64,000 nt of DNA. It comes from Circinella minor (lineage: Eukaryota; Mucoromycota; Mucoromycetes; Mucorales; Lichtheimiaceae). The position numbers and the translations under genes were made by a program. Positions 5,009-47,513 of this stretch are shown here, one piece after another. The notes beneath the pieces were generated by a model. It was given only the letters and a program-made list of their open reading frames with translations, searched no databases and was not told where the DNA came from. Numbering within the stretch: the stretch's first letter is position 1; each line of letters begins with the position of its first letter. The DNA is taken from the NCBI GenBank assembly GCA_016758965.1, contig JAEPRB010000096.1, positions 62,001-126,000 of the forward strand, read 5' to 3'.

Positions 5009-8000
5009 TTATTCTTGTGGTAATTGATATGATCCACTTAAAGCACTGGATGCACGTTCAGCTTCCCATTGTTGTCTGAGTTCTTCCATACTACCACTAC
5101 TATAACGATATGCCATCTTTGCACGGGAAGCTCGTGTAGGTGTTTGTGATAATCGATCAAACACATTACCAGCACTATGAGCTCTTTCCATTGCTATTGA
5201 AGATGCACTTACTACAGGTCCAATATTAGGTCTTGGAGGTTGTTGGAATCTTTGTTGATAAGACATTGTAGCAACAGGTTGTGCTGATGGTGATTGTTGT
5301 GGATCATAATAATACTCATTACCATTACCATTACCATTACCATTATTATTATTAATATTATTATTATTATTATTATGTTGTAGTTGTTGTTGATACATGG
5401 ATAATTCACGTAATGATGAACGTCTTCGTTGTGGCACAGGTGGTTGTTGTAATGAATAAGCTCGTTTACGTAAAGAACCCGTTTGTGACGAAGAATGTTG
5501 TGAAGAAGAATGTTGGGATGAAGAATGATCCGATTGCATTGAGGATCGACGAATGTGATTATTACGTATAGGGGAAGGTGTAGATGACTCACGATCCGTG
5601 CTGTATCTTGCAAATTCACTTGGATTTGCCATTACAAATGGAATAGGGGATTCAGAACCATTGGCCATACGTTGTTGCCAAGATAATCGGCGCTAAAATA
5701 ATTATAAAAAAAAAAAAAAAAATTTAGTATCTATATTTATAGAAAGAAAAAAAAATATATTTTGCTTTTGCTTACCTGAATCATGTTCAAAAATCTATCT
5801 GGTGATGGAGTTGCTTCACGAGTTGGAGCATGACGATTACCTTTATCTGTCAGTGACACAGGAGGTCGAACGCCACCATTGAGACTATTCCGTTTACTTC
5901 CTCCTCCTCCTCCACCACCACCATTACTTGATCCAGTCACGTAAGTGGGTGAAGTGATAGGAGAAGGTGGAGGTAAAAGTACTTCATCATTAGTACCTCC
6001 AAAAGAAGCAATCGATGATCGACGAGAATCAATCAATTGTGGTTCTGGTGTACTGACAACACCACGAATACCATCTTCATAAATCTTGTCAAAGATGGTA
6101 TTACCACTATTAATGTATTCTTCGATTTTAACATCAATAGCACTATCATCATCACCCATGATTGATTGTTGTCGACTACCCCGTCTACCACTTGTATGAA
6201 TACTTTTTTCTTCCAATTTACGAATACGTCGTTCATTTTCTACTGTCGTTGTAATAGCTGCACGTTTCATGACAATCAAAGTACGACGCAAATCATGTAC
6301 TGTCTTTTCTAAATTTTGAATCGTAACTTGACGGCTGGTATCGCTCATACGCAGATTCATTATATCTTCTACTAATCCTTCAGAAATACCCTTCGCTTCA
6401 TCTAATTCAAGTGTCTTGATCAATTTGGAAAGAACATCATAGGCTGTTTCAGGTGCTGCTGATGCTGGTACACTGTATTGTTCTTCAAAAGCATCCATAT
6501 CAGCCCATCCATCACCATCATCATTTCGTCGTGGTGTCATAGATTCGTTAATGATATCATCAGCGAAGGCAACTCGTTTTTCAATTGCTGCACGTTGTTG
6601 TTGTAATTGATGATGATGCTGTTGTAGTTGCCCAGTAGTACTACCGCCACTACCACCTGAAGCAATACTTCCAGTTTCACTTCCATCTGAAGAAGCAATA
6701 GCATCCCCTGCAGCTTCTGATTGAAGGGCACGTACACGAGCGGTCAAATAAGAAATTTCTGCTGAAATAAGATCAATACGTTCATCCGTAAAATCTAATG
6801 CCAACGTATCCATGGGTTGACCCGTGGCTTCTGCATTTTCTTTTTCAGCCAAATAAATATGTCGACGTTCATCAATTAATTCGAGTTTCTCAGCAGCTAA
6901 TCGTTCTCGTCGGAAAAGTAATTGTTCCATTTCCACAACCGCTTGTTTGCCTTGAATAAACTGGTAAAGAGCAGTATCCAATAATTGCTTCTTACGCATG
7001 ACTCGGACATCTACGGGTATCTTGTTCAATCTTTTTCGCATGGCCTTGCGATCATTGACTCGATTGGCACGTCGTGCAATAAAGGCAAAACTACCACCCA
7101 CAATATGTGTCACTTTACCCAGCAATCGTTCATCCAAGACACCTCCTTCACGTACCGCCTTCTTTAATACATTCGTCAATTGTTTGAGTTGTTGATTATT
7201 CATCAATACTTCTTCATCACGTCGTTTTAATGTCATACGTTGTTGTTCATGTTGACGTTCCAATCGACGACGTTGCATATTGGCTTCAGCATTCAAGCGT
7301 TGTAATTGTTGAATTTTGCGGTCTTGCAAAGTAGATTGTTCACGTACACGATCCGCTTCTTGTTTCATACGTTTTATCATACGTTTCTTTTCCACTTTAA
7401 GCGTTTCTACATTGACACGTAAAGAGCGTAATAATGTTTCATTTTGGTTACGTGTGGCTTGCATCGTCATGGTCGTTTGTGAATATTTGCGTTTGAGTTC
7501 TTGAATCTGAGATAGCAAATGTTTCATTTTAGCTTCATAAGCGTGTCGGATTTCAATGAGATGTTGTTTTTCCTTCATTTGAACGGTTACTTCGGATTTA
7601 CTGGTGATACGACTACGTGTACGTGTTACTGCTTGATCACGTTCACGTTGTAAAAGGATCAATTGTTCTTGAAGTTGAGACATACGATCATCATATTTGC
7701 GTTTCATGAACGTATATTCATTTTCGGATTTTTCTAAATGAGAAACAAGTTCTTCCTTTACACGAATATCAGATTGGATTTGATGTAACATACGAGCTAA
7801 TTGTGTATCGGTTTTCTTTCTATTTTCAGGAAGCATATTTTCAACACGTGTAGGACCTGTAGCCGAATCACCACTACTACTATTATCATCCACCAAAATT
7901 TCATTTTTACGTCGCTCACTCTCTGGACCATCCCATGCTGGTACAGCCTAAATAAAAAATAAAAAAAATAAAAAAAAAAATTTTTTTGTTCAAAATGACA

Positions 8001-10825
8001 AGATCTAATTTTTTTTTTTTTTTCATTGTTAAGCTTTTAAAATATAAAAATTGTAAAAAAATTCTTACCAAAGTTTCAATTTCATCTAATAAAGCATTAC
8101 CCAAAAGATCATTATCATCTTCTTCAACAGGCGATCGAGCTGGTGTGAAATTACCCTCATCAGATGATGTACGTTGCATATCTTTTTCTCCATAAAGTGA
8201 TTTTTCTTGTTCCTCAAATTCCTTTTGAAGAACGAAAAAAAAAAAAAGACATTTCATCTAATTAGTAAAAAAAAAAAAAATCTTATATAACTTGTAGCAT
8301 AAATATATATATATATATTTACCTTGAGTTCTTCTTCCCAATCACGAGCTGCATCATCCAATGGTTTAGCAAGATCCAAGACTTGCATACCTTTTTGAAT
8401 TTCATTTCTTGCTTTAGCAATACTATCTTTCACTTCTTGTCGAATTTCATCATCCCCTATACTAAGCGTATATTGAGGTGTAATGACACCTGCTTGTCGT
8501 TGACGTTGAACACGTGTACTGGAACTTTGTGATAATACAGGTCGACGTGCAGAATGTTTGGTCTTGACACGAGCTGTATAAGTAGTATTACTACTATTAG
8601 GTGTCACACGTTGATGACGACGACGTGATCGACGTGTACCACGTCGTTGACTTGTAGATGTACTCAAAGTCATTGAAGCAGAAGGAACACCCGATTTTTG
8701 AAATGAGGAACTTGCCATCATCATTGCTTGCATAGCCATAGGTTGAGCATTTTCCAAAAAGGCAAGACGATCACGTGTATCTTGTAATTCATTATTCAAA
8801 TCATGAATTTGTTTTTGATATTGTATAATAATAGGATGGGATGTAGCTGTTTGTTGCTTTTTTACTTCTCCATGATGACTCTTATTATTATCATCTACCG
8901 ATTGTCCTGATAATGAAAGGGGTGCCGTGGGTGATGCATCATTTAAGAAATCACCTAAATCACGTTCCATAACAAGAGTATCACGTTCACTTGTTACTTG
9001 AATAAGATTTGTTGACATATCTTGAAGACGTTCACGTAATCGTCCAATTTCAGCACGTAAAGCTTTATTTTCACCACTATCACCCCCTGTGCTAATATCG
9101 CCTGTTGCACCACTTGCACGAAGGGAAGCAATTTCCATACGTAATCGAGCAATGTATGAACGTAATTGATTGATTTCAATCGAACTTCCAGCAAAATCTT
9201 GATTGATAGTGACCCGATTCTTAATATTACGCGCTCGATTCGCATATTTCAATGTATTCAAGGTTTCCATGAAATTCGAATCCGATGGTGACACACATGC
9301 CAACATGAGAGTTTGACTGTTACCACCCAAAGAATCTTGGAGTAATCTCGTGAGTTTAGAATCTCGATAAGGTACATGCGTTGCCCGCCGGGTCTCATCT
9401 CCGAGTGCTGAAATGACGTTACCAAGGGCTAATAAACCAGAATTAATCGCGATACCTTCTTTAGCACGATCTCCTTGAGCATTCGTTCGTTTTAACTAAT
9501 CGTTTTTTTTTTTTTTTTTTTTGATATGAAAGAAAGTTTTTGTTATTATTTCCCATTGATATTATTATTTGATAACACCACAAAGAGAGCAAAAATAAAA
9601 TAAAAAATAAATTTACCCTTTCAGATCCAGCTAAATCAACAAAATGAAATTTACTTGTAAATGACTTATCACTACCATCTTCTTCACGTTGTTGTTGTTT
9701 AAGAATGACAGAAAAAATAGCGTGTGAGCGAGAGGAGACAGTATTCATATCGGTAGATCCGGTGGTTCTGCAAAGAGAACCTTTGGCGAGGTACCCGAGT
9801 AATTCTTCTGGACTTGAGCAAGTTTCCTCTCGAACACCACTCCAATAAATATTACCAGCAATATCTTCACGAATAGATACTTCAGCACTCATATTATTAT
9901 TATTATTATTATTATTCTTTCTTCGTTGAATTGTATTTGGATTTAAAAGATCAACAAGTTCTTCGTTGTACAATTCCAAAAATGAGACAAGAATTTCATA
10001 TTTAAAGTCTGGACTTTCTTGAGCACGCTGTTCCATACTTTCGAATAATCGAACCATACTACGCGGTACAATACCTAGTTATATTCATTTTGAGTCCTCT
10101 TTGCTTTTTTTTTTTTGCTTATATATGTGTTCTTCTTCTTTCAGTTTAGTGTGGGTAAAAAAAAAAAGATTGAGTTACCTTCTTCTTCACGAACTGTAGT
10201 ATTGTGAAGACCGGTACCCATACTGTATGTTTTGCCCGATCCAGTTTGTCTAAAATGATTTATTTTTTTAGTCAAAAAGATCAAAAGTTTTTTTTTTTTT
10301 TTTCCATTGTTGCAATACATGATCGTTTTATTATAAGTATTACCCATAAGCCAAAATGGTAGTATTAAATCTATTATATAATATATTATTATTATTATTA
10401 TTATTATTATCAATTCATCTTAGTTAACAAATGACGCATGGTAATAAGTTAAAAGAATTTATATATAAAAAAGAAAAAAGAAAACATTTGTTTGGGCATA
10501 AAAAAAAAAAGACGAAAAATATAAAATTTATTATTATCTATTTTAAATTTATTTACCCCTCCATAAACTTGTCTAAAAGTGGGGTTATAGCTTCTGAATA
10601 AACCTGAGACTGAATCGTATTGCTGTCAAATACATAATCGTAAGTAAACGATTTATCAGTTCCAATCAAGATTTGTGGTTCATTAGGAACATAAGATAAA
10701 CATTCAGTACAGTTTTCCAGTTGTTCTTTTTGTGACAAAGGGCGTGCCCGAATAGCCACTCTATAAATATATATTATATATATATAAAAAAAAAAGTGCA
10801 CGGACAATGTTGTAAGATTCGTCAT
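5009..10825 (-). CDS. Kinesin-4 family motor protein (KIF21/KIF4-like), nine exons
   Basis: Exons, minus strand: about 10825-10806 (start, uncertain), 10760-10557, 10370-10344 (27 nt), 10249-10179, 10074-9617, 9495-8323, 8221-8069, 7947-5776, 5692-5009. The sum is 4962 nt, 1653 aa. The motor fills roughly residues 8-340: VAIRARPLS, the P-loop GQTGSGKT (about 84-91), [16 protein letters not shown] and DLAGSER. The GIVPR form and the long KR/Q-rich coiled coil after about 730 match kinesin-4, a microtubule plus-end motor involved in microtubule length control, spindle or chromosome work. A run of eight Asn sits inside the motor at about 160. The C-terminus is Ser/Gln-rich without the WD40 repeats of animal KIF21. 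The first exon is the weakest part: ATG at 10825 needs a GTCCGT donor, and the intron could instead be read through in frame. Confidence 0.9.
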
Positions 10826-16556: not shown

Positions 16557-19500
16557 CTATTTAATTTTCTCACGCATTGTATGTAACCATTCCAACATAG
16601 ATTGAGTAGCTGCATGCCATTCACTAAAATCTAAAATTTTATCTAAAGAATCGTTACTTGTATTAACATCATTTTCTCTCCTTGTCTTTTTACTTGGTTC
16701 TAATAAAGCTGGTTCATCCAAAATATTATTATTTTCTATTGAGGAAATTGGACGTTTGTTGCTTGTAGTAACTGTATTGGATAAATGGTTATCCTTTTTT
16801 CCTACTTCTGCCATAGTTATATCATCGTCCTTGTTGTTCACAGTTGGTCCATGTGGTGATAATGAATTCACTGTCACAACATTATTGTTATGTTTAGTTG
16901 TATCAATAATTGAATCATTCTTATCTTTGCTAATGTCACGTTGAACAGGATCTTTCATACTAAGAGTCGACGATTCTGACGTTCGTGTTGATGATAGTGG
17001 AGTCATGTTGGATCCTGTAGATCTACGACCCAATAATGTCGATGTGTTGGTCTGATCGATAGGTGGTTGCTGGTCATCAATAGATGTTACAGGTAAAGAA
17101 GATTCGCTTGCTGCAAGCATCGCAGCACGTGTAGGATGAATAGAATTTAAAGGTTGTTGATTTCTGGGCTGAGTTATTATATCATTTGTTAATGAACTAT
17201 CAGGACTACTCGAGCTCGTAATAGACAATGGTTCTTCTTGAATCAATCGTCGTTGTGTCGATGACAAAGATTGTATTTCTGAGGGTGTACTACTTTGTGA
17301 ATCATTATCAAAATTACCTTCAAGTAATCTTAAAAAACAGTAAAACATATTATATCAGAACAAGTATAAATTATTTGTGTAATAAGGGTCACAGAACAGA
17401 GAAAAAGAAATCATTACCTTGATTTTCTAGCTTCACTTGCTATCCTTCTTGCGAGTGTATGAAATTGATTACCCCAAATATCTTTATTAGAAATCTAAAA
17501 TATAAATATAGATAAATGATTTAATTATTTTTTTCTTTTCTTCCTCCCCCCTCCCCTCTTCTCACCTAAACTACATACCAAAAAGAATTTTACAGATTGT
17601 GTTCTACATGAAATTAATTCTTTAATTGTCTGGATATATTTGTTTAAAATCGGTTTATGTCCACTTTCTTCTCTACCGTTCAAATCTATTTATATATATA
17701 TATATCATAATTATTAACAATTAAATTTTATTCGTATAGAAATATATATCTTACATTCATAGGCAACTTTATTTTTCATGCCAATATGTATAGGTCTATC
17801 CTTGATGGGTTGAACAAGTATATCAATGATACCCTTAAAAAATTATATATATATATATATACAAATTAAAATACAAATATAGTCATCATTAGATTTCTCT
17901 CTTTTCATTACCTTTAATACAAATATAATAGTACTATTAAATGGTCCATTATAATGACCATAGAGAATGGGAAGTTCTTTATCAATCCAAACAACACCAT
18001 AACCACCCATTTGATTTCCTTTTCGATCACGACTTTCTGTTGACATTCCAATAATGGCTCTTAATTCATGTTGAATCGATGCCTTGATAATAATAATTCA
18101 TAAGTATAAACAAAAAATATCACATCCTTTTTCTTTCTTATTCACACACACAAACCCTCTTTATTTTTTCAATATTAACTTACTGGATTAGATCTTGTAT
18201 ACTCAACAACTAATTTATTTCGATCCTCTTCAATTCTCTTCAAATCATTTTCAAATTTTTCTGAAAAAAGGAGTTATTAATAACAATGACATGTCTTTTG
18301 ATACTTTATTATTATAAGAATACACTTACTATTATCCATTTTATTAGTTATTAAAGGTGATTGTTCTATTGGTGATTGATCTCTATCTGGTATATATACA
18401 CCATGATGGATTAATTTTTGTTTTTCTGTCGTATCCGTTGTTGAAATAGATCTAGATGATAAAGTACGTTCTTTTGAATTTTCAACGTATCTAAAATTAT
18501 AAATTTATCACTATAAGTATATAAAATAAAATGTTATAGATGTCAAAAAAAAAAAAAAAAAAAGCTGTCACCTTAATCTTTTTGCTTCACTTGCTACTTT
18601 TCTTGCCAAATCATAAAAATCATCCAAATATCCATTTGTTGATCCTGGTTCAATCTTGATTATTATTATTATTATTATTTTTTAGTATGGGAAACCGAAT
18701 AAAATCAATGATAGTTATATATATATGATTGTAATCACTTACCAAAATACCACGGATTGGTTTGGATCTCTTTTTTAACCCCTTATCAATGATATCTAGA
18801 TAAGGTGAAAGTTCCAAATTTTTTCTACTAATGGATGGATGATCATTGTTCAAAACTAGTGTGTGTGTTTTTTTTTTTTTGAATATTATTAGAATATCGG
18901 TTATACATAATAACTTTTCCCTTCCCTTTCCCCCCTCCCAATAAAAAATAATAGAGTAAAAATGAATAGAATTATTTTATCAGGAGTAGATATTCACTTA
19001 CAATTAACAATAAGTAAATTTTTTGATGCAATTAGAAGACGACGATCTGGTGGAGATTGAAGAATGGCATCTGCTGTAGCCTATATATTTTTCCCATATT
19101 AATTAAAAATGGATGCTCACAGCAGTAAACAAAATTATTAAAAATAATAATATCAAACATACCATAACAAGAAAATTTAAAGTACTTTCATATTTGCCCT
19201 CATGATTTCCAAATTGATTCTTAATAGTATCATTCAACCAAACAGCACCATATCCACCTAATTGATGATAATCAGAATAAGAATCCACGGATGTAGCAAT
19301 AATGGCTACTTCTTCTCGTAATTGATATGTAAACTGATAAAATATATAAATTATGTATATTATTGTTATTTTATCTCATTTTATATGATTTCATTATATA
19401 TATATATATTATACACTATTTTTACCATATCAACAATATCTTTATGTTTCTCTAATAATTCTTGTCGTGTATCTTGTATATCACCTAATTTTTGCATTAC

Positions 19501-20877
19501 TTTACCTATAGTAGATATATCTAATAAAAAGTACGTATTAGACCTTTTGAAACGACAAAAAAAAAAGAGTTTTGATTTACCACTTTTTTCTGGTATGGAT
19601 TGAGATTCTGTATCATAATTAGGTCTATATGAATCTCCTCTGGTTAATCCTATTGCTGGACTTGATCTTAGAGAAGGAGATGAATGTGTAGTAATATTAT
19701 CTCGTTCTAAATGCCTTTTTTTTTATCATTATTAACATATCAGGGTTAATAAAAATTCTTTATGGAAAACAACCTCTTTTATAATATACTATACCATAAA
19801 TCCAAACTTTCTCGTGCACCACGTTTAGCTATACTATAAAACTTTTGTATCCAATCGATTCTAGTATTACCATCAAACTATTAAAAATATTGAATTATTA
19901 GTAATGAATAAACTTGTCCTGACAACACCCCCCCTCCCAAATTTCCACAACTTTTATATATAATAACGAACCAAAAAACCATGAATAGGTGCTTTTCTAA
20001 GCTGAATTAAATCTTTGATAATATCAAGACAAGGTCTCAAAAGATGATTTTGTTTTCTAACAGATGGACTTTTACCATTCAAATCTTTTTAAAATAAAAT
20101 AATTTTTTTTTTTAATTTTTAAATGTAATTTTATTATTTTTCAAATATAAAAATATATATATAAAAAAAAAAGGTAGAACTTACAATTTATTATGATAGG
20201 ATTATTACAACAAATAATAAGTGGTTGATCTTTAGGACATTTTTTTACTATATCTCTGACAGCCTAAATGAATGGGGATCACATGGTTCATAATTAAACA
20301 AAAAAAAATTAATGCTGTATCACTAAAAATTGTATATGTAAATGATATATTCAAAAAAAAAAAATCACCTACGTACCATCAAAGGAAATATTAATGCACC
20401 TGTAGGTGGACCATTATGATATCCATATTGATTTGATATCTTTTTATCTAACCATACTACACTATATCCACCTAATTGTTTATTATCTGGTGATGGATTT
20501 TTTGTTGATATAGCAATAAATGCTACTTGATAGACTGGTTCTTCATTTTTCTATACCCCCCCAAAAAAAGAAGTTTTTAGTATTAAATTTATATTCAATA
20601 AAAGAATGAATATAATAAATAGAAATTTTTACTTGAATTCCAAATCGAATGCGACCATCAATAACGGATGCACCAAATTGACTTCCACATTGATTTAATA
20701 AGTGAATTCGTTCGTTTTGTAAATCGTCAAGTGTTTTTTGAGTTCTATCTAAAGAAAAAAAAAAGTGATTTTTTATATAAGAAAACAAAAAACAAAAACA
20801 AAAACAAAAGCAAAAATAACTGGTAAATAATAATAATAAACATTTTCTTGTTTTTTTTTACGTTGTAATGAACTCAT
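16557..20877 (-). CDS. Protein with three tandem degenerate RNase H-like repeats (paralogue A), 19 exons
   Basis: Exons, minus: 20877-20862, 20748-20633, 20550-20377, 20263-20185, 20084-19972, 19877-19795, 19714-19581, 19520-19426, 19333-19163, 19080-19002, 18855-18743, 18654-18572, 18490-18330, 18260-18184, 18082-17912, 17833-17755, 17685-17579, 17494-17418, 17328-16557. Sum 2700 nt, 899 aa. Three units (about 52-193, 277-418, 504-642) each follow a helical lead-in and read as an RNase H fold: a 'VAIIATS.D...GGYGAVW' hairpin, a helix plus 'LLIASKNLLIVN' strand, then 'RGILIEPG...DLARKVASEA' like the RNase H end 'VKGH.G...D.LAR.AA'. Catalytic acids are mostly absent, so it is probably not a nuclease. 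The tail (643-899) is Ser/Thr/Asn-rich with NLS-like KRPIS and KKTRR. Assignment to RNase H is by eye. Same layout as the gene at 25980-30378. Confidence 0.8.
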
Positions 20878-21341
20878 TTGAGGAACATGTTTTTTAAAAA
20901 AAAGAGAGAAAAGTGTGGGGTCTTAAAAAATGTAAAGTCCATGAACAATCAAATTTAAAACCTATTTTATATGTGCGTGTAACAAAAAAGATCGACATGT
21001 TTATGTCCCCGGTAATATGTCTAGGAGGAAAAGAAAATTTAGAAATTATTGTTTAAATAGTTATACTAATCAGTCCATCAATGATAAATTGGTAACTAGG
21101 CCTTCTTTTCTTTGAAGCATGAAAAAGATGGAAGAAGTATGGAGTCTGGAGGGCTGTAATTATACATGATGTGTATCACCCTCGTTATTAAAAACTCAAG
21201 CTTTAGTTTGTAAAATAATACCGACAGTACAGTAGTTTGCTATTACATATTGTTTTATTCGGATTATGTATTGTTTCATGAATGCACTCATTAGCTAAAT
21301 AAAATATAAATATTTGGGGTGATACGTAAAAATTATGGAGT
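20878..21341. other. Short intergenic spacer
   Basis: Upstream of paralogue A and downstream of the decayed exonuclease element. It should include the paralogue A promoter. I see no gene, and no clear inverted repeat that would mark the element's end. Confidence 0.5.
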
Positions 21342-24300
21342 TTAGTGGGGAGAATTTAAGAACACTTCTGGTGACGAAGGAAATGGTAAGATTTTTCTAT
21401 ACGAAGTTGGAGACGATGGTTGTGTATTAGTGGTATTATTAGTTTTCTTTTTTGATCTTCGTGTTCTTTTTCTTGATAATATTGTTGAGATTGGCATGAT
21501 TCTTCCACTGCTTCGACTGTTATTGGTATATAATGACTGTGGTACTATTGTTTATGATAATATTGATGTGTTTTCTGCTGCGGGATTTAGTGACAATGAT
21601 GATGATGATCACGATTGTAGGAAAGACGAGATAACAGCAGGTAAAACAGGTATTCCATTTTAAGAGTTGATAGAATCATTAGTACGTAAAGGGGCAGGGT
21701 ATTGTGCAGACACAACTTCATATGATCTATCGGGATATTGCAATTGATGCTCCATTATTTCACATACACCATTGCTATTCATTTTACTATTGTACGCCAC
21801 GTTTCTCTTTTTCCAAAAAGAGTTATAAAATGATTCAAGGTGTTCAGGTGATTGGTAAAAAAGGGTATATATGGTGCCATGCCAGTATTTACAATGTTAT
21901 TCCATTCACTTGCTAATTCATTCCAATTTATAGATAATCGGTTATGTACGTATGACTATGTATGCAGCGTAATTTTTTGGGAAATAATTTGAATTCTAGT
22001 TGTGTGTGTGTGTACGTAGTGGCAATACTGCTTTTTTGACTTGTTGCTTTGTTGCGCGATAATCATATAATGCTTCTCTTGGATTATTCATAATGCCAGT
22101 GAGTATAGAGAAGTAGGTACTAGTAGAAATCAACATTGAAATAGTAACAGTGGCATCTGGTGTATGCTGCATGTTGAGTGATCTTGATATTTCTTCTGGT
22201 ATTGCTGTAATGCCAAAGGATTCCCGACCTGATTTCAGACGCAAACGTCCACTAGTATACCCACCATTAAATCGTGGATCAAGTGTATTCATTCCATACT
22301 TTTGACATAAAATATTAATTGATTCCATTAGCCATGGATCATGGTGGCCTTGATGGCTTTGTTTATATCTGTTTTTCATGCTAGCCTAGAAAAAATAATG
22401 CAACCAAAAAAAAAAAAAAAAACATATAGTGTTACATACATGGATATTATGTCGTAAACGATAATCGGCAAGGATACAATCGGTAAATTTCGGCCCAGCC
22501 CCAAATGAAACAAACTTTCGAACGATACGTATTCATATGAACACCCCCCTCAAGAGTGTTAGTCCTACGAGTGCACCTATATAAAGGTAGTTGATTTTTG
22601 TCTCTGCCAATTTCAAAATAGAATGACACGCCTGGAGGATCTGATACATAGTCACATCGAATTGTATTTAAAACGTTTTCAGCTTGCTTCCAAGTTTGAT
22701 CGTCAAATAATGTACGATTCGTAAGTGAGTATTTTTGTCGACCATACTCTTGGAATAGCAATTCAATAACGGGATACAGATCGTTTGATGGAGGGATTAC
22801 CTGTTTTACTCGTTTCAAGACCCAAGCTAGATTTTTTTGATAACATATACTTGAATGTGATATTTTGACCTTGTAAATATGTTTCAATCCTTCTTCTATC
22901 ATCTTTATCTATTACAAATAGTGCATCACGTAAACAACGTGCAAATTCCATTGCTATATAAAAAATAATGAAATTTGATTGGTATATGGAAGAATGCCTT
23001 GTGTTATTTACGTTATACATATTTCAGCAACATGATCAAAGCTATATGTAGTGTTTTAGTAAATATACGTATATACCCAGACTGTGTTTCTTAAAGACTT
23101 TGAGCTGTCCCATCAAATGAAATGATGTCTTTTAAAATTCTTGTTATGCCATAATTTTCAATTTGCTCTATTATTTCTTCTTCTGGTTGTTCTTCAAAAA
23201 TATTTTTGTTATACAATAATGAATCAGAATCCAACTACCCCTGGCCTTGATTATCATCTTGGTATATTGATGAAGAAATTGTTGTAGGGGTTATTGGTTG
23301 GATAGAATTATTGGATATATAAGCATGCTTTTCTTAAATTCTTGATACGTTTAATCAAACTATTGTACACGTTCAAAGATACCCAAGCATCGAGTCCGAC
23401 ATAATATATTTGATTTGGTGACAGTAACGGACTTTCCCAATTACTTAATCTATCACCATTCCCTTTGTATAAAAGTGACGCCAATACAGCAGCACACATG
23501 TTTGACAGGTTGGTTCTACCGTCTTGAGCAGCACCTTGCTCTCTCTTTTGCGAATGAGCCTAGCTCTACTACATGTCTTCTGTCGGCGTCAACTTGATAA
23601 TCATGATTGATCTTTGCAAAGTCGTTCTACACATTACGCTACGTAAATTTAACAACATTGTTACTTTTTAACAAATCGATCAGCTTCTTGGGTAGTTCTC
23701 CATAATGCAATATAGGTAAAATTAATAGCAAATCATTATACGCAATTTGTACGACAGCTGTCTTTCCAATGTACTTTGTAACTTTATTTATAGTTCCATT
23801 CGGTATCAAAACTGACTGTTATTGACCGACCATCCTGAATATCACTTAATATTTGCTCTATAGCTATGTTTGCATCACTGATTGTACGAATATAACAAGG
23901 AGAAATGTAATCTGGAAGTGATATATAGTTCGAATTATTGTTGATGGTGTTGTTTATTGTTGTGGATGATGATGATGATGATGATGATGTAATTGTAGCT
24001 GTAGTGTAGCAGATAAAGGTTGATTTAGCGAAGGGATGGTTTCTTGCAAAAATCGCTTATCACCAGCAATATTGTCTATACGTATAAAATATTTGAGGTT
24101 CTTGCTGATCGTATAAATGATATGACTTCAACATTTGTTCAAATGATATTTTTAAAGGTGCTACGTACGTAGTTTTTTTGTTGATACTAATAGTTGGATA
24201 CTGATCTCCTCAAACTCATTATATACGGTATATAATGCATAAAATGTCGATTCCCTATCAACTTTTGCCATATGCTTGATTATCTTAAACGTGTGATCTC

Positions 24301-25610
24301 CTTTTAAAACAACACCGTCCAACACCATCATTTCTTTATCCATAAATAATCGAAGCTGATCCACAATTGCTGTATATATCATACGTAAATAGGTAGCTGA
24401 TGGAACATAACCAGCGTATCCCAGCGGATCATCAAAATTTGAAAATGGTGGATGACTTTGACTTACCCCACTTCCTCCAAAGAAAGATAATTGTGGAACG
24501 TGTCGTTGTTGATGATTAATTGAAGTTAAACATGTAAGTTAAAGACAGCTATAACGAAAATGATGAAGTTCTTGAAGCAGATCATGTAAACGTTCCAGTC
24601 CCATAGCACTTTGAAAGCAAGGTCGAAGCAAATCAGCAAGTTGTCTTGAAATACGCACCACCTCGATGAGTTAATATAGCTGGGAATATTGATTGAATCT
24701 GATAAGGTAGACTAGCCATGTTGAGCTCACTATTATGACCATTAATGATCTTTCTACATTTCATGTACGTAGCATCTATAACGTCGAGAAAGTATGTAAA
24801 AGCAGCTATATACATATTTTTATTCATACGTATTTAATAAAATGCCTCGTTACTTTGATATATTAATAGTTTACAAGCCTTTATAATATTATTACCTATC
24901 AATATCCACAATTTGGCGCGCAATAGGATCACAATTAAAACCATCACTGTGAAGTTTACCTCCACAATCTGGAGCTTGGCAAAAAATATCTAAAGTTTAT
25001 CTGGAGCCCATACAAATATACGCGGACGATAAAGTAAAGCTGGATCAAATTTCTGACGACCACCACGAAAGCAAAAGTATGGCGATTCTGGCTCTATCCA
25101 GAATTTATGTTCGTTATACAACATGATTTTATTTTTTGTGATCTTTTTTTTTTATTATTGTTTTATTTTTAATAGATATTCTTGAACAGCGCCAAGGGGA
25201 GTATCATCTGGTTCTTCTTGTTGGTTGTGATTTTGTTCGTGATTTGATGAACTGTCACTACCAGTATTACTATTAAGTTGTTGCCGCTGTTCTTGTTATC
25301 CAGCCTGCTCGTCCTGTAAAGTTTCTAAACTAGTATTTTCAACTTCAACCATCGTACGTATCACCAACACTTTCATTAAGAATAACTTGTTCCGAATGCT
25401 ATTATATAGTATTGTTAATAATTTTATCCGGCTGATATATAGCCAGGTAAAATTTAGTTAAATACCTGTATATTGTCATTTACATTTACATGAGAATGTT
25501 GAACGTGATCTTTTTCTTCGTTATGGGAGGTAGTGTGTGAGGTACGTAACGAGAAAATATTTATTAATAGGGTTCCTTACAGAACGAGCAGACTTTATAG
25601 TTTTTCCCAT
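21342..25610 (-). pseudogene. Decayed repeat-element gene with Cys cluster, transposase-like stretch and 3'-5' exonuclease
   Basis: From an ATG at 25610 (MGKTIKSARSVRNPINKYF) to a stop at 21342 the minus strand holds coding pieces in shifting frames. In order: acidic/Gln linker; YFCFRGGRQKFDPALLYRPR followed, after a one-base shift near 25000, by CQAPDCGGKLHSDGFNCDP (a Cys cluster like DUF6729); QIQSIFPAILTHRGG, shifted, then SRQLADLLRPCFQSAMG near 24600; GDHTFKIIKHMAKVDRE at about 24280; the exonuclease motif FDTEW near 23800, IGKTAVVQIAYNDLL, and the last motif LSPNQIYYVGLDAWVSLNVY near 23400; TNTLEGGVHMNTYRSK, shifted, to the RHNIHV region at about 22450; and a basic tail RKRTRRSKKK near 21480. 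Exonuclease motifs follow the RNase D/WRN pattern. At least four frameshifts and several stops make it non-functional. It probably encoded a mobile or multi-copy element protein. Confidence 0.75.
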
Positions 25611-25979
25611 TTTTATTATATTAAAAAAGTAAAAAAAAAATAATCAAATATAATTCATGGATACAATCCTTCCTATAACAAAAACAACAGTCAAAATGTT
25701 ACACATGGATACAACTCTACATATATCCCATACAACGTAGCATGATCATGGTTCACATTTACTGCTAATTACTTCACACAGCAATAAAAAAAATCATGTT
25801 TATTTCAATTGAAAAAATGATTTGAATTCACTTTTTTTTTTAAAAAACTATAATAATTGTTTTGTTTATACATAAAAAAAGAAACAAAAACTTTTTTTTT
25901 TAGTATTTTACGAATCGTTGAATTCAAATTGGTTTTACCCAAAAGATGTCAACTCATTTTTTTTTAAAGATGTTTGTAT
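25611..25979. other. Short spacer between the decayed element and paralogue B
   Basis: About 370 bases of AT-rich DNA. It presumably holds the 3' UTR of paralogue B and the former promoter of the element. No gene seen. Confidence 0.5.
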
Positions 25980-28900
25980 TTAGCGGCGAAACATTCGGTT
26001 CATCCATTTACCGAGGCGATTGATTACTCCATCTCCACCCTCATCTTCAGAATCATCGATACGTTGCCTTTTATTTGATTCATTTTCCTCTTCCTCTTCG
26101 TCTTCTGTAATGGATCGTTTGTTATTATATTTGTTTTCTTGATAATAATATGGAGTGGGTCCTGGAGTCAATGGTATAGATGCTTGGTTTCTGTTCATTT
26201 GCACGCCATTGCTATCACTCGATTCAACCACGGATGTTGAAAAAGGTGGTTCATTAATCAATCCAATTGCAGCTGCTCTAGATGAATGTATACCTTCAAG
26301 AGAATGCTGATTAAATTGATTAACTAAAGACCAATCTATTTCATCCGGGTAAGTAATCGAAGATGACGCGAGACGTGGGGACACCATTTGAACAGGATCT
26401 TTTCGAACCTGTTTTGTTGGTGGGATGATTGATAAACTACTAGAATCTTCTTCATCTTTTTCAATTCGAGAAGGAGTAAAAGAATATGTTTCTTCTTCCG
26501 AACAAGCATACCTTGTAAATTTTTTTTTAAGAAAAATATATATATATTAATATAGGTTTTTCCAAGACGATTCGATAATAATAATAACAGAAACTATCTT
26601 ACCAAAGTTTTCTAGATTCACTAGCAACATTTCTACTCATATCATACGCGCATTTAATCCATGGATTCTTAAAATAACTTTTATCAAGCTAGATGATTTT
26701 TTTTTTTAAAAAAAAAAGAGTTAGCATCTATGTATGTTACAGCTTATAGTTCGAAATTCTTTTTTTTATAACAACTAGATACTTTACCAAAATACTAGTA
26801 GTAGATGCTTTTCTTTTCCTAATTTGATTTTCTATATCTGGATCCACAACACAAGTTCCAGCATCATGTAATACTTCACTGGGTGTAACTTGGATATTAT
26901 TAATAACTATATATATTTAATAGAGTTAGTAAAAGTGATAATGAAGTGAATACTATATATATATATATATATATATATATGCTTATATTTTTTTTTTAAA
27001 AAAAACATGACACTTACAGTTATGGATAGCTTCGTTAGTAGATCCAATAATTAGATGGTCTTCTGATGGACATTCTGCTAATAGTTCCTTAATAGCCTAA
27101 TAATATAACGGGCGAATATATATAAATTTATAAAAATCAAATGATCGAATTTTAATACTTGCTATCTTTTTTTTTTATAAAATCAGAAAAAAAAAGGGGG
27201 GGGGGTTTACCTTTAATAAAAAGATGACAGCTCCACCTTCAAAACTATTGTAATTACCAAACTGATTTCCTATATCTTTATTCAACCACACCACACCAAA
27301 TCCACCCACTTGACCACGGTTTTCTCCATGAGGTACATCAATAGACATGGCAATAATCGCCACTCGGATATAAGGCTAATATAATCCCAATATAAGTTAA
27401 ATCTCTATTTTAAAATTCCAGTAACTTAGAAAAAAAAATAAAACTAACCTGTTTTTTCAAATCAATTGATTGATCACCAATTTTAATCGTTTTGTTTGGA
27501 AATTCCAAAAGTTCCTTATGTCTTTTTTCAATTTCACGAAGTCGTCTCACAATAGAATCTATTATAAAACGGATTAGTAAAAACAAGAAAACATTTCTCA
27601 AGTAAATACGAAAATCAATTCAATTCTCTTACTTGTATCAAAGTTTGCTTGTTTTTTAGGTCGTTTACTTTCTGGTTTTTGTACGGATAATTGATCTGAA
27701 CTTGATACAACAGGAACAGGTTCAAAAACTTGATCTGGTAATGGTTCAAAATTTCTTTCATTACTATTTTATAATATATACAAGTTAGTTTTTGTCGCCA
27801 GTAAACTCTTTTCAAATAAAAAATTTAAAATAAATACCCCAATTTTCGAGATTCACTTGCAACATTACGGCCCATTTCATAAAATTGTTTTACCCAACTA
27901 TACTGAGGATATTGAGCAATCTATATATATATATATAATTATTAGATGTTTTCTATTCAACCAGAATATCTTATATATATATATATATATTATTCATTCT
28001 TACCAAGAAAGCTACTGTAGGAGCTTTTCTGCTTTCAATGATATAGTTGATTTCGGCTACACAAGATTCAATATATACTTTCTTTTTAAAATTCCTTTTA
28101 AGATTAATAACTATATATATATATATAAATTTACGAGTTTTAGTAACGAAAATATTATTATTATAATAAAAAAATAAAAACTGATGTATTAATTGAGGTA
28201 CTTTACAGTTAACAATGTCATGGCCTGTTGTAGCTATAAGAAGTGGTTCGTGCTTTGGACATTTACGAAGCGCATCTCTCAAAGCCTAATATACAAAAAA
28301 AAATTAATAAAAAGCATGTATAAACTATCTTTTTTTTTTTTTATATTATCCCTAATTCATGTTCTTTTCAAACAATGTATATATAATTTACCAATAATAA
28401 AAAGGAAGGTGTACGTGAATCAGGATTATCATAATAATTATATTGATTGGATGTACAGTCACTATCAACCCAAACGACTGAATACCCACCAAATTGATAT
28501 CCATCTGGTCTACGGCTATCAGTCGAAATGGCTAAAAATGCAATATGTACTCGATCAGGTGCATATTGCTATATTATTCATTTATATATTCAAAAAAAGA
28601 AAGAAAGTTAAATATGTTATTCACATCCTTTTCTTATTTGAATAATAATTAACTAACCTGTCTGTGTAATCGAATGTGTTTGTTACAGATTATTCCAAGA
28701 TTTCCACCTCTCATCTTCAATGATTGAATTCTTTCCCCGTGAGTTCTGTTCCATTTATCAAGTGCACTCCCTGTAGAAAAATAAAAAGATTGAATTACAA
28801 TATTAATTGATATATAACTCCCTCCAATTTTTATTTTTCTCTTTTTTTTTTTTTAAAAAAAAAAAAAAAAACTTACATGCTTTTTGACCAAGTGGTCCTA

Positions 28901-30378
28901 AAGGTCGGTCTGAAACAGGTGCGGGTGATGACTGTACTCCTTGGAAATTTTGTAAGTCTTGTGGATGATTCTGTTGCATGGGTTGTGGAAGATCTTGTTG
29001 CATGACTTGTGGAAGATTTTGTTGCATGGCTTGTACAGGAATTTGTTGTACGGCTTGTGGAGGAATTTGTAATATGCCTTGTCGAGGATCTTGTTGCATG
29101 GCCTGTGAAAGACTTTGTGGAGGACCTTGTTGGATGGCTTGTGGGGGGATTTGTTGCATACTTTGTCGAGGATCGTGTTGCATACTGTGTCGAGGATCTT
29201 GTTGAAGACCTTGTTGAGTTACTTGTTGTACAGAAGAATGTGGTAAAGATACCGACATTTTATGCGCTTCATCCCATTGACGATCATCATCTGTAACCAA
29301 AGCTAATTTTCTTGCTTCACTTGCTACTTTTCTTGCTAATTCACCAAAATCTTTCATCCAATCCACATTTTGCTCAGGATTCATCTAATATTATGTATCA
29401 ATACAATAATAATGATGTTAATTTTCTATATTCCCCTCTTTCCTCCAACTCCTTTTTTTATTTAATGACTTACAAAATAACCATAGACAGGAGCTGTTCT
29501 TTCAGCAAACATTTTTTCAATATCTTCAATACAACCAGCTATGTATGGATAATAATCAGTTTTTGGATTGAAGTTATTTTCTCCTTTCAAATCTAAAAAA
29601 AAAAAAAAAAAAAGGTTTAATACCGAACGTTTTGATTAATTGCCAAGAAAAACAAAAAAAAAAAAAAAATTACATTCAGCAACGACTTTATTTCTGGTAA
29701 TAATAGTAAGACTTTCATTATTAGGTATTGTTTTCATAACCTTTCGTACAGCCTATTTGTTTGTTTTGTTAAATAATTTCAGGTACTCTCTATTACTCAA
29801 TACATAATAACAAATAAAGCTTATTAATTTACCTTTAAAGAAAAAATGATTGTACCAGTACTTTTTCCATCATGATATCCAAATAATAAAGGAGAAGTTT
29901 TATTAAAAGGTATAATACTATATCCTCCAGGTTGAGTGTTATCAAGTCTCATTGGATCAGTGGATAAAGCAATTATGGCTGTATGAATAGTTGTTTGAGG
30001 TTCACCTTCCTATAAAAGTTTCATGTCAGAATTTTTTTTTAAAGGATTGAGGTCAGTTAAGTTCTTAATTATTTTTTTTCTTATAAATTAAAAATGAAAA
30101 TTGACTTTTATATATAATATAAAATTTACAAACAAACCTCATTAATAACAAGTGGTGCACTCTTAATGTCTTGTTCATATTTATCAACTAATTTTATTTT
30201 TTGGTGTTGAAGATCGTCTAGACGACGAATAGTATGTTCCACTAATAAAAATAATTAAAAATAATTAAATGTTATTTTAATGAATGACCACACACAAACA
30301 CACACACACACAAACATAAAAAAAATGAAATAGTTTAATTAACAAGATGATAAAAACTTTACTTTGTTCTGGATTCAT
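25980..30378 (-). CDS. Protein with three tandem degenerate RNase H-like repeats (paralogue B), 18 exons
   Basis: Exons, minus: 30378-30363, 30241-30138, 30009-29833, 29752-29674, 29592-29474, 29384-28877, 28770-28658, 28568-28392, 28285-28207, 28110-28004, 27920-27838, 27763-27633, 27558-27449, 27375-27211, 27096-27018, 26906-26788, 26688-26603, 26511-25980. Sum 2784 nt, 927 aa. The plan is that of the gene at 16557-20877, including a 16-nt first exon. RNase H-like units lie at about 50-193, 380-520 and 605-750, with core lines such as HIAFLAISTDSRR..GGYSVVW and FYEMGRNVASESRKL. The linker after unit 1 (about 205-334) is a Gln/Pro-rich run of 'MQQ.P.Q' repeats absent from paralogue A. The tail has an acidic patch and basic stretches NNKRSI and NKRQR, suggesting nuclear location. 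The fold is inferred by eye; activity is unlikely because three of four catalytic positions are changed. Confidence 0.8.
28905..29215. repeat. Gln/Pro-coding imperfect tandem repeat inside paralogue B
   Basis: On the minus strand this stretch encodes many copies of a short 'QAMQQ-P-' unit with units of about 21-30 nt. It lies inside the long exon 29384-28877. It explains the Cys/Gly-rich frames on the opposite strand, which are not genes. Confidence 0.7.
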
Positions 30379-33985: not shown

Positions 33986-36490
33986 TTAAAATGCTTTATA
34001 TTCAGTTCTTCTTGGTTGTGTGGATGAGGAGAACTATGTGGGGAAAAAAAAATAAAGGTTTGTTTTAATTACATTCCCTAAATTTATACAAGTAGCCTAA
34101 AAAAAAAGGAATTCTTATCATACCTGGGGTGAAAGAGTAGTAGTAGTAGTTGATATTTGATCAAAAAGATTAGAACAACCCATAAGATCATGACCAGAAA
34201 CCTGACACACTTCACAAAACGGTGTTTCATCGTCTAAATGGCGTTGTAATAAGTTACTATTTTGTGATAATGATGCCAATGTAGGTGGAATAGGTGGAAC
34301 GGAGGCTGTAGGTGGAGGTCGACGTGGTAGTGAACGTTGAGTTTTGGTTGATGTATTACTTGGTGTAGATGTGGAAGAAGAAGTGGAAGCAGAAGATGCT
34401 AGACTCCGTATGGATGGCGTTGTTGACATTGTTGTTAATGTTGTTGTTTGTGTCATCTTTCTTCGTCGACCTGCAATCGATCCCTGATGTTCCGTCAACA
34501 AACGATGTACGACTCGACGTTCATGATCTAGTGCTTCTAATAAATCGACTTCCTTGAAAAGTTTGGCTTCAATCAAACTTTCAAGCTCGGAAATATCTCG
34601 GTTCAATATATTGATATGTTTACGATACTTTTCAGATTCTTGAACTCGCTCTTGTTGCATGGAATTCAGTCTACTTTTTGCTTCATTCAACTGTACCTGC
34701 AGCTGCTGTTCAGGGATAGAAGCAAGACTCGTGGGAGTAGGTGGTAACGCCTTGACACGATCTTGTAAAAGTTGGTATTCCATTTGTGATTTCTTAAGCG
34801 CCTCCTGCATCACCTGACTTTCTTGTTTGAGTTGTTGGTTTTCTGTTTGAGTGGTTGTGTTGGTTGTTTCCAAATCATTTTCAAGTTGCGTTACTTTTTC
34901 TCGTAATCGATCGTTTTCGCGTTCAATAGATTGATGTGTGATCTTTTCATGTTCCAATGCTTGTTGTAATTGTTTAATTTCTTTTTGACTTTGTTGTTCT
35001 TTTTTATTATGTTCTTCAACCAATTGAGGTCGTTCTACTTGGGTATATTCAGAGACTACCGTTTCTGCATCTTCTTTGGATAGTTTTAATCGATCGCGTT
35101 CATTTTCCAGAGCTTGAATCCGTGCATGGGCTTGTGCTAATTTGGCTGTATGTCGTTTCATACTGGTTTCATGTTTTGCTGTTGTACATTCATAAAGTTC
35201 AATGGTCTCCATGCCTGCACGCTTTAATTCTTCAACAGTCTGTTCCAATTCTTTCACTCGACACTTGTATGATAAGGTAATTTCTGTATTACTATTTAAT
35301 GCTGCTGTCATTTCCAAAAGTTTGGTTTCGAGATCAGTACGAACGTGCTCGTGTTGTTTACAGTGAAGACATTCACCTATATGAATTGCAGGAACAAGGT
35401 CGATTTCCTTTTTTGATGTAGTAGATGTAGAAGAAGATGAAGAAAGGGAACGGCTGTCAACCCTATTCGTACTATTGGATATGAGATGAAATTTATCTTC
35501 ATCTTGGTGCATAACAGGGGCATCCATATCTAACCCTTCATGTAATGTAGTTGGGGTCATTTCGGGTGAAGGAATACCACTTGTTTTAGGTGAAACGGAG
35601 AGTGGATGTCGAGGTCGTTGTTGATGTTGATTTATACATTGTTGCTGTTGGTGCTGTTGATGGAATAAGTGTTGGTGTTCTTGTTGCTGGTGTTGACGAG
35701 CTGTATTAATACATGGTAAAGATGTTTGTTTTGCAAGTGCTTTTTTCTTTCGTAAGTTTGGTGATGACGGTGATGCTGGATTACTATGTTGGTATTGTTG
35801 ATGTTGTGTACGACATGTAACCTTACTTGATAACACAAAAATTCCAGTTTTTGGTGGGCAGTTGAAATATCGCGTGCTATATATAAAACATAATAATTGT
35901 AAGATTTTATATATATATATATATATATTTGAGGTGATACATAAATAAAAAAAAAAGGGGGGGAGGAAGAGAAGAGAAAAAGATCGAGAACTATTTTACC
36001 TATCCACTGAACCATCATTTTTACCAGAACCTGGTTGATCCAATTCAATACCGGCCCAAATACCTGATTTAAAATGTGTTGTTCCCAAGAATCGTAAAGT
36101 ACCTTTCAATTTTCTTGATTCAACAATAACACGTTGACCTACACATAAATTTGCTGGTGACTGTTGTTCATGAACAGAAGGTAATGAACTACGAGGAGTT
36201 GAAAGTGTTGTTTGAATTGAACTCGTATTGGATGATATTGAAAAGCGAGGTGCTGAATTATTAATAGGTGTATCCATAAACTCATCATCGCCAGACGAAT
36301 CAGACATTCGTGAACGAGAAGGTTGCATACGAGTTGTTGATTTAGAAACAGTCACTGGTGTTGGTAAACGGTACTGATGTCGGCTTCGTAAAAAATCGTG
36401 TGATGCTTGTCTTGCAAGTCTCATTGTTCGAATGGTTTCACTGTTACTTCGAGTAGTAGTTATGGTCGGACTGTCAGGTATTCTTGACAT
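33986..36490 (-). CDS. CAP-Gly microtubule plus-end protein, CLIP-170/Tip1-like
   Basis: Exons, minus: 36490-36000, 35876-34124, 34033-33986 (last exon inferred), 2292 nt, 763 aa. Residues 1-114 are Ser/Thr-rich. A CAP-Gly domain at about 115-182 is split by the first intron (GQRVIVESRKLKGTLRFLG, GIWAGIELDQPGSGKNDGSV, then RYFNCPPKTGIFVLSSKV); GKNDGSV binds EEY/F tails of tubulin and EB proteins. A Gln/His-rich linker and a long coiled coil follow, then a zinc knuckle FCEVCQVSGHDLMGC (C-x2-C-x4-H-x4-C) as in CLIP-170. Members track growing microtubule ends and regulate dynamics and dynein. The last exon would end RRTEYKAF, recalling the EEY/F-type CLIP tail; without splicing at CAG|GTATGA the protein stops at 34118. 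The start at 36490 is preferred over an upstream in-frame ATG at 36574 that adds only Phe-rich sequence. Confidence 0.88.
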
Positions 36491-36793
36491 TGTGGAAAAG
36501 AAGGAAAAAGAAAAGTAAAAGAAAGATAGGGGGAAGAAAAGAACATACACACGAAAATCAAAACTATAGGGCACAAAGTAAAAAAAAAAAAAAAAAAAAA
36601 AAAAGAGAGAAATAGCTAAAAGGAGTATTTAGGTGTGCAAGCTATTATACAAATAAATTATCGTTTATAAAATAAAGGCATAACCTAAAAAGAAAAAAAC
36701 CACACTACTTTTCTTCGTTTCTGCCCGTATGTCATGCACTCAAATTGAGCTTTCCTTTTGTGGTGTAACGCCCAAAATTTCTTTGTGTATGTA

Positions 36794-46000: not shown

Positions 46001-47513
46001 AGAATTTTGAGTATAGAATTCTGAAACATGTGTAAAAGCTGTATTATAATCTTGCATAAAGGTATCATTTTCAGGCATCCGTTCAACACGGACAGCTTCA
46101 CCAAATGCTGTTGTTCTTTTTTTTTTCAACGAATTAGTTATACGAAAAAACACACTTACAATCCAGGTTCTTAAGAAAAACACTATTTTTTTTTTTTTTT
46201 ACCTTTGCATACTCATATGTTTTACTACTTTTTCAGTTGCTTTACTCAAACTAAAAGGTAATAACAATTCACAGGGTTCGATATGTAATATCCGAGTTTC
46301 AAGTTCTGACCGCATATATCCATCTTCAAACGAATCATAGGTAACATCACCTGTAGCAGGTTGAACAGCAACAAGACCAATTTGAACACGTTCATCTGGA
46401 CCGCCACCACCACGTTTTTCTTCCACAATACATAATAAGTAATTTGAAGATGATCCACCACTACTACTACTGCTACTTGTATTGTTATCATCCAATTCCA
46501 AATCATCCCTCGTCGCCATTTCATCGACGAAGGTCCCCTTGGTATATAAATGTTTCAATTCTCGAAGAAAAGGACCTCCTTTATTCGTTCCTGATGCTTT
46601 CAATGCTGCTGTTTCTGTTTGTCGAACTACGCCTACTTTATGGCCTGCATGCACCAAACGACGTACATGAACCGCCAATCGATGAGTAGGTATACTTGCC
46701 ACATAAAAATTTCTATCAATAAAATGAGCAATATGAAGAACCCGTGAGGCAAGTTTGGCATCATCACCAAAAAATCGAAATTTGTAACCAACTTCAATCG
46801 CTAATAAAACACCAGGGTGTTTTTTTTTTAATTCAAGAACTTGAAGTTCGAGCGGTGACCAATTCTTTTTATCTTTTCCGTCGGTCGTAGTGCTAGTAGT
46901 GTCATCCCCATTATTATTATTATTATTATTATTATTCATACGTCGCCGTTTTTGTTCTCGTTCTTGTTCCATTTGTCCAAAACGTGCGACAAATTCTGCA
47001 TGACGTTTTTCTTTGATTGGATCGTTCACTTTGGTTGATTGACTGGCATTATCATTATGATTATTAAACGCATATTGTTGTTCTAATTGGGGTATGGAAT
47101 GTTGCTGCGATGATGTTTGTGTAGTAATAGTAGTAGTTGAGACTCGATTGTCTGGTAGAGAGGGAAAAGGTACAGGAGCTGTGTCATTGTCATTTTTAGT
47201 TGTTGTTGATTCATCAGCATATATAAATTGATCGCGCTGTAATCGTGGAACAGGTAGTTGTGGAGGAGGTGAGGGTGAATCGGTTGGTGATGAGAAAAAA
47301 GGTGAATTGGAACCAGAAGGTGATTCTTCAATCGCGTCTAAAATAAATAAATAACAAAATTCATTTTTTTTTTTAAAAAAAAAAAAAAAAACCCCCACGT
47401 TTAAACACTACCCGTTATGTAATTGATAAAAAAAATTATATATTACCATTCTCTTTTGGTTTTTTGGTTTGTTGAAAAAAAGAACTTAATGTCAACTGTC
47501 GCTTTTTACTCAT
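43014..47513 (-). CDS. MSH3: DNA mismatch repair protein Msh3, 13 exons
   Basis: Exons, minus: 47513-47447, 47337-46203, 46115-45909, 45819-45559, 45496-45364, 45291-45043, 44882-44781, 44667-44486, 44412-44147, 44045-43747, 43580-43466, 43378-43318, 43191-43014. Sum 3255 nt, 1084 aa, a normal Msh3 length. Msh3 pairs with Msh2 (MutS-beta) to recognise insertion/deletion loops in the nucleus. The N-terminus carries a PCNA-binding PIP box QLTLSSFF (residues 6-13). The mismatch-binding domain reads [13 protein letters not shown], with the Tyr-Lys pair typical of Msh3 in place of the Msh6 Phe-x-Glu, and [17 protein letters not shown]. The ATPase has Walker [14 protein letters not shown] (split by an intron), Walker [17 protein letters not shown] and FVTHYP. 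An Asn run coded by an AAT repeat sits at about 46911-46935 in the disordered linker. Confidence 0.95.

Follow-up and report, generated by a model that had tools for sequence, protein, structure and literature searches.

Two neighbouring genes of the fungus Circinella minor (Mucorales) encode paralogous, lineage-specific fungal proteins, each with three tandem pseudo-RNase H modules. Both genes, here called A and B, lie on the reverse strand of the stretch of DNA analysed, which we refer to as the window: 64,000 nucleotides, positions 62001-126000 of contig C96 in an assembly of 46.6 Mb. The modules are predicted to retain the fold of RNase HI, and the residues on which catalysis by that enzyme depends are largely missing from them.

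Three repeat units in each of two spliced genes

The gene models of A and B were spliced by hand from the window sequence. Gene A (NCBI INT45_013274, annotated as hypothetical, protein model P0001) runs from 20877 to 16557 on the reverse strand and encodes 899 residues in 19 exons, and gene B (NCBI INT45_013273, also hypothetical, protein model P0004) runs from 30378 to 25980 on the same strand and encodes 927 residues in 18 exons. All 35 introns of the two genes start with GT and end with AG, and all 37 exons are open. An earlier note on this DNA, made from its letters, had bounded the locus at 16557-30378; these bounds agree with the outer ends of the spliced genes, and the start of A falls inside them. 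By BLAST, the match to the NCBI entries of C. minor is 95% over 75% of the query for A and 96% over 100% for B. Alignment shows that exons inside the units are absent from both NCBI models, P0001 and P0004, and because these unit-internal exons are missing, the repeat is hidden in the database entries.

Unit alignment bears out the three units that had been described in each protein, with 25-35% pairwise identity among the six. The cores, all on the reverse strand, are A1 (residues 49-194, window positions 19795-20538), A2 (residues 275-420, 18487-19321), A3 (residues 502-645, 17322-18073, with a Pfam RVT_3 match at E 0.13, below the cut-off), B1 (residues 46-195, 29295-29994), B2 (residues 377-522, 27760-28556), and B3 (residues 602-752, 26508-27375). 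Three intron sites are shared by all six units, at alignment columns 56 (phase 0), 83 (phase 1), and 125 (phase 0), and a fourth at column 154 (phase 2) is common to five, B1 being the unit without it. A 79-base exon is likewise present in every unit of A and B. Intron columns and phases coincide beyond chance, and the units therefore go back to duplication of an exon block. Such units also occur in related genera, three in Phascolomyces and two in Zychaea.

The helix that had been placed ahead of each unit is predicted for all five units that were modelled, every one of them in relatives of A and B. In gene A, splicing and the relatives' models point to the exons 5′ of A1 (20633-20748), A2 (19426-19520), and A3 (18184-18260) as the probable carriers of this helix, all on the reverse strand. 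Their presumed counterparts in gene B, on the same strand, are 30138-30241 for B1, 28658-28770 for B2, and 27449-27558 for B3, by splicing and by the modelled helices at residues 3-33, 281-306, and 529-548 of P0003. Exon 6 of B (28877-29384, reverse strand) holds the end of B1 and a long Gln/Pro-rich linker, in which QQxPxQAMQQ-like stretches recur; none were seen in A.

Predicted RNase H fold of the units

The assignment of the repeat to the RNase HI pattern, proposed in the earlier note from motifs and element order, was followed up by modelling and by profile comparison. AlphaFold2 models were made for the relatives P0003 and P0005, rather than for the window's own A and B, and structure prediction and fold search of these relatives agree on an RNase HI fold. 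Profile-profile comparison of the units with RNase HI gave an hhalign probability of 80.7 with an alignment over 123 columns, and the similarity is significant and in register, as befits members of the RNase H-like superfamily. Retroviral reverse transcriptase (RT), with its connection and RNase H domains, was among the best matches in the structure searches, and no actin-like, Argonaute, or Prp8 entry appeared among the 50 matches listed for each search. Going by these models and profiles, the units of A and B almost certainly have the RNase H fold. The likeness that had been drawn to the terminal motif KGH.G...D.LAR.AA holds for the LAR..A helix only, there being no KGH, and the Asp is displaced relative to RNase H. 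The best viral match in BFVD was A0A481ZDV3, a Pithovirus 'Ribonuclease H' of 306 residues (447 aligned columns, root mean square deviation 24), which is possibly two RNase H folds in tandem.

A number of results weigh against the fold assignment. Pfam on the whole of A and B returned only the RVT_3 match noted above (12.6 bits versus a cut-off of 21.6), no RNase H family was among the Pfam matches of 13 units scanned singly, PF00075 over the whole genome matched two other places and neither A nor B, and searches of the PDB by sequence, with P0002 and with the unit profile as queries, gave no RNase H. In addition, the hhalign probability is not close to 100, and the structure search matches listed include no single-unit entry for unit 1 of P0003. 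The AlphaFold2 alignments comprised 4 and 5 rows, and the resulting models, with predicted template modelling scores of 0.31 and 0.36, do not show how the modules are arranged. Sequence-only detection gave no RNase H match in A or B above cut-off, and the fold claim stands on predicted structure and profile-profile comparison.

Loss of the catalytic residues

Residues were placed by the hhalign register in 13 units, from A, B, and their relatives, and compared with a set of 31 RNase HI sequences, using the E. coli RNase HI numbering of the catalytic positions. The position of D10 holds Asp in 10 of the 13 units, Glu in two, and Lys in one, unit A1. Each of the catalytic residues E48, D70, and D134 is retained in 0/13 units and in 31/31 of the RNase HI set, and the E48 and D70 positions are not acidic in any unit. 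The same distribution (0/13 versus 31/31) is seen for T43, N44, and N/Q45, the RNase H residues that touch the RNA:DNA hybrid. Residue comparison thus confirms that the active site, called degenerate in the earlier note, has lost three of its four catalytic acids. Meanwhile S11, Q22, G25, I73, I110, and E149 (alignment columns) are invariant in all 13 units, and N77 is found in 11. With the catalytic residues lost and other residues fixed, it follows that the catalytic design is gone and that another constraint is present. The units were also considered as RNase H enzymes and rejected, given the missing catalytic and hybrid-contact residues; judged by these residues, they very probably perform no RNase H catalysis.

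A conserved motif and nuclear localization-like stretch in the tail

After the last unit, the models of P0003 and P0005 have a long stretch of low predicted local distance difference test (pLDDT) score. Within this tail, the motif [I/M]H[P/S][S/T]RAA is common to A, B, and 5/5 database proteins. It is conserved in A as HPTRAAMLA (residues 707-715, 17112-17138, reverse strand; aligned in the five database proteins) and in B as HSSRAAAIG (residues 826-834, 26262-26288, reverse strand; placed by alignment). When the motif was sought in other genes with a query of 31 residues, gene B alone was recovered and even gene A was missed, so this search is little informative. Further along, pattern matching places a bipartite stretch resembling a nuclear localization signal (NLS) at residues 834-860 of A (KR...KKTRR, 16677-16757) and at residues 882-901 of B (KR...KRQR, 26061-26120), both on the reverse strand. 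The pattern is present in A, B, P0002, P0003, P0004, and P0005, and P0001 is without it, as the NCBI model lacks the region. The tail also contains a Trp-containing C-terminal segment, modelled as a helix at low confidence.

Family range, conservation, and copies in the genome

Protein searches found five family members in four species; since they miss true homologs, they do not show that other Mucorales lack the family. Such searches need shared 5-residue words: one that found P0004 did not pick up its homologs P0003 and P0001, and another missed P0004 and even P0003, one of its own query rows. The unit cores are more similar than the rest of the protein in A versus C. umbellata (91.1 vs 81.9%), in B versus Phascolomyces (57.7 vs 39.3%), and in Zychaea versus Phascolomyces (45.7 vs 31.2%). 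In a tree of the 13 units, Zm1 joins B1/Pa1 (82/84), on a long branch and with an unsure placement, B3 pairs with Pa3 (99/99), and B2, Pa2, Zm2, B3, and Pa3 form a group (84/92) whose inner order is unresolved; the A units are unplaced. By these sequences, the tree and unit counts are consistent with a third unit having arisen later, by duplication from a two-unit form, although the two-unit state may instead reflect loss of a unit in Zychaea.

Searches of the C. minor genome, in which the best candidates were scored, found no further intact copy, and partial ones only. B-like stretches lie at C47:205.0-207.7k (near the contig end), C49:48.7-52.2k, C53:28.1-28.5k, C53:53.2-53.8k, and C96:19.4-19.8k, and an A-like piece lies at C53:29.0k, ~0.5 kb behind a B-like stretch. 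Clear in-exon stops occur at C96:19.5k and C49:50.7k; stops counted across introns in the other partial copies are not probative. The partial copies suggest birth and death within the A/B family. Partial copies of B, with one piece of A, were noted at loci L009, L010, L018, L019, L020, L055, and L056. By eye, the copy at L009 has an apparent insertion, and positions 960-2350 of L010 hold a long degenerate array with a AAAAAAGATATGACACCTCAG-like unit, adjoining the B remnant.

A repeated element (21996-25320, reverse strand, ends set by eye) separates B from A in the window. It contains a stretch resembling a 3′-5′ exonuclease (DNA_pol_A_exo1; Pfam E 7.8e-5, 23.0 bits vs a cut-off of 23.6), and one of its frames has 54 matching stretches genome-wide. 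It is likely that a tandem B-A pair was copied several times and that the pair in the window was split by this element. Elsewhere in the window we noted by eye what we take to be a kinesin-like gene (5737-10078), a CAP-Gly/coiled-coil gene (34118-36628), a MutS-homolog-like gene (46199-47407), and a Rieske-like gene (60835-61506, reverse strand).

Origin and proposed function

The path that we propose begins with a cellular-type RNase H domain, which most likely lost its active site. The inactive domain would then have been copied as an exon block, giving two and later three units, and the gene would have been duplicated side by side to give A and B. The source of the domain was approached by scoring the unit profile against single sequences, with shuffled sequences as the control. 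The RNase H1 of C. minor itself, the one locus found in a scan for RNase H1 relatives, scored 33.7, 30 bacterial RNase HI sequences had a median of 18.6 (11.9-35.6), and 12 Ty3-type RNase H domains of the same genome had a median of 12.3 (9.7-17.1); shuffled controls had medians of 11.5 and maxima of 19.5 (RNase HI) and 13.2 (Ty3). These scores weakly favour descent from a cellular type 1 RNase H over descent from a retroelement; the test is a weak one because the score ranges overlap and a single eukaryotic cellular RNase H1 was included. Were A and B instead remnants or domesticated pieces of a Ty3-like retroelement, with a degenerate tether and RNase H, the match of the units to the retroviral RT connection and RNase H would be accounted for; retroviral and Ty3 lineages do include dual and degenerate RNase H domains (PMC9040795), and Ty3-type RNase H domains are abundant in this genome (89 matches). 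Yet the Ty3 domains score lower with the unit profile, if with overlapping ranges, A and B carry 35 introns, and Pfam finds no RT or integrase domain in either, and we regard such an origin as improbable. We hold it to be about equally improbable that A and B are decaying and functionless like the other copies, of which five places, at least two with in-exon stops, are on record, in a family found in few species. Decay would leave unexplained the open exons with their GT-AG introns, the higher conservation of unit cores in three comparisons, and the tail motif and NLS-like stretch retained in related genera.

The NLS-like stretch in A, B, P0002, P0003, and P0005 makes a nuclear protein probable. 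The modules and helices would serve to bind partner proteins, and the HPSRAA motif and the C-terminal helix would offer further docking sites. Since the units have lost both the catalytic set and their grip on the hybrid, we consider a multivalent protein-binding scaffold the likeliest function and a reader of nucleic acid the second. The reading as a whole, a nuclear, non-enzymatic, multivalent scaffold, is nevertheless put forward tentatively, as is the idea that protein binding is its main business. Several observations pull the other way: nine of the 13 units have Asp or Glu one residue past the D134 place (by eye), the C-terminal helices have low pLDDT in the relatives' models, and units A1 (+10) and A3 (+9) are strongly basic. 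Furthermore, with D10 mostly acidic and S11, Q22, G25, and E149 invariant, the old active-site face may act specifically. The earlier guess of a scaffold for RNA:DNA hybrids or dsRNA finds no support, as the hybrid-contact residues are lost in 13/13 units and charge is indecisive: net charges range from -4 to +10 among the units and from 0 to +6 among six RNase HI domains, which does not decide between protein and nucleic-acid binding. A triple array that reads nucleic acid in the nucleus, binding RNA:DNA hybrids, dsRNA, or another structure uncut, is a less likely function, which would make use of the predicted RNase HI fold, the NLS-like tail, and the mostly retained first Asp. Catalytically inactive RNase H serves as an R-loop probe in published work, and charge is no obstacle for most units (Zm1 is at +5, besides A1 and A3), the six RNase HI domains being at just 0 to +6. 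The missing T43, N44, and N/Q45 contacts speak against such a reader, as do the negative units B3 (-2), Pa1 (-4), and Pa3 (-4) and the lack of any hybrid-binding domain by Pfam in A and B. More doubtful still is a bolder version, in which a bead-string of killed and multiplied cellular RNase H modules recognizes RNA:DNA hybrids or some other nucleic-acid structure in the nuclei of a small group of moulds, perhaps serving as sensor or guard in conflicts with mobile elements or RNA interference, and undergoes rapid birth and death. Least probable is a different enzymatic activity at the old active-site face, through the kept Asp (Asp or Glu at D10 in 12/13 units) and the family-specific S11, Q22, E149, and N77, given that no unit is acidic at the E48 or the D70 position and A1 has Lys at the first Asp.

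Comparison with known RNase H-like proteins

The earlier note was aware of no published protein in which three RNase H-like folds follow one another. Neither the A/B family nor a set of three paralogous RNase H repeats was found described in the literature searched, which left subscription papers mostly outside, but retroviral pol combines, within a single polyprotein, three RNase-H-like domains that differ in kind; several such domains per protein have been described, pol polyproteins being typical (PMC3985635). The RNase H fold is among the most reused in biology, and no account of repeats made from an inactivated cellular RNase H turned up in that literature. If our reading is true, an enzyme has been converted to a repeat scaffold, the two-unit Zychaea protein beside the three-unit forms shows possible steps of the path, and the cell biology of early-diverging fungi gains a testable protein family.

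With type 1 RNase H (RNase HI/RNase H1, PF00075), the units share the predicted fold, the element order, the GGYG hairpin, and the L-A-R terminal helix, but three of the four catalytic residues are lost from them, as are those that contact the hybrid. The A/B family also has its units in tandem, two or three per protein, along with helices and a disordered tail, and the Pfam models do not recognize the units. In actin and HSP70, the nucleotide cleft sits between the two folds. Prp8 has an RNase H-like domain without RNase H activity, and ribosomal L18/S11, aeRF1, and Prp8 have single domains from other branches of the fold that are ancient and widespread. According to PMC6514570, actin and HSP70 are NTPases with typically two tandem RNase H-like folds, and L18, S11, and aeRF1 have the RNase H fold in a binding or structural role without RNase H activity. 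The tandem folds of actin and HSP70 are like those of A and B, whose modules, in contrast, are joined by linkers and best match RNase HI. In the Athila/Tat and Odin dual RNase H, and in the retroviral connection or tether, one of the two RNase H-like domains in the protein is degenerate and structural (PMC9040795), and A and B have in common with these several RNase H-like domains per protein and degeneracy. What sets the A/B family apart from the retroviral and Ty3 proteins is that its two or three repeats are paralogous to one another and that no repeat has the full active site.
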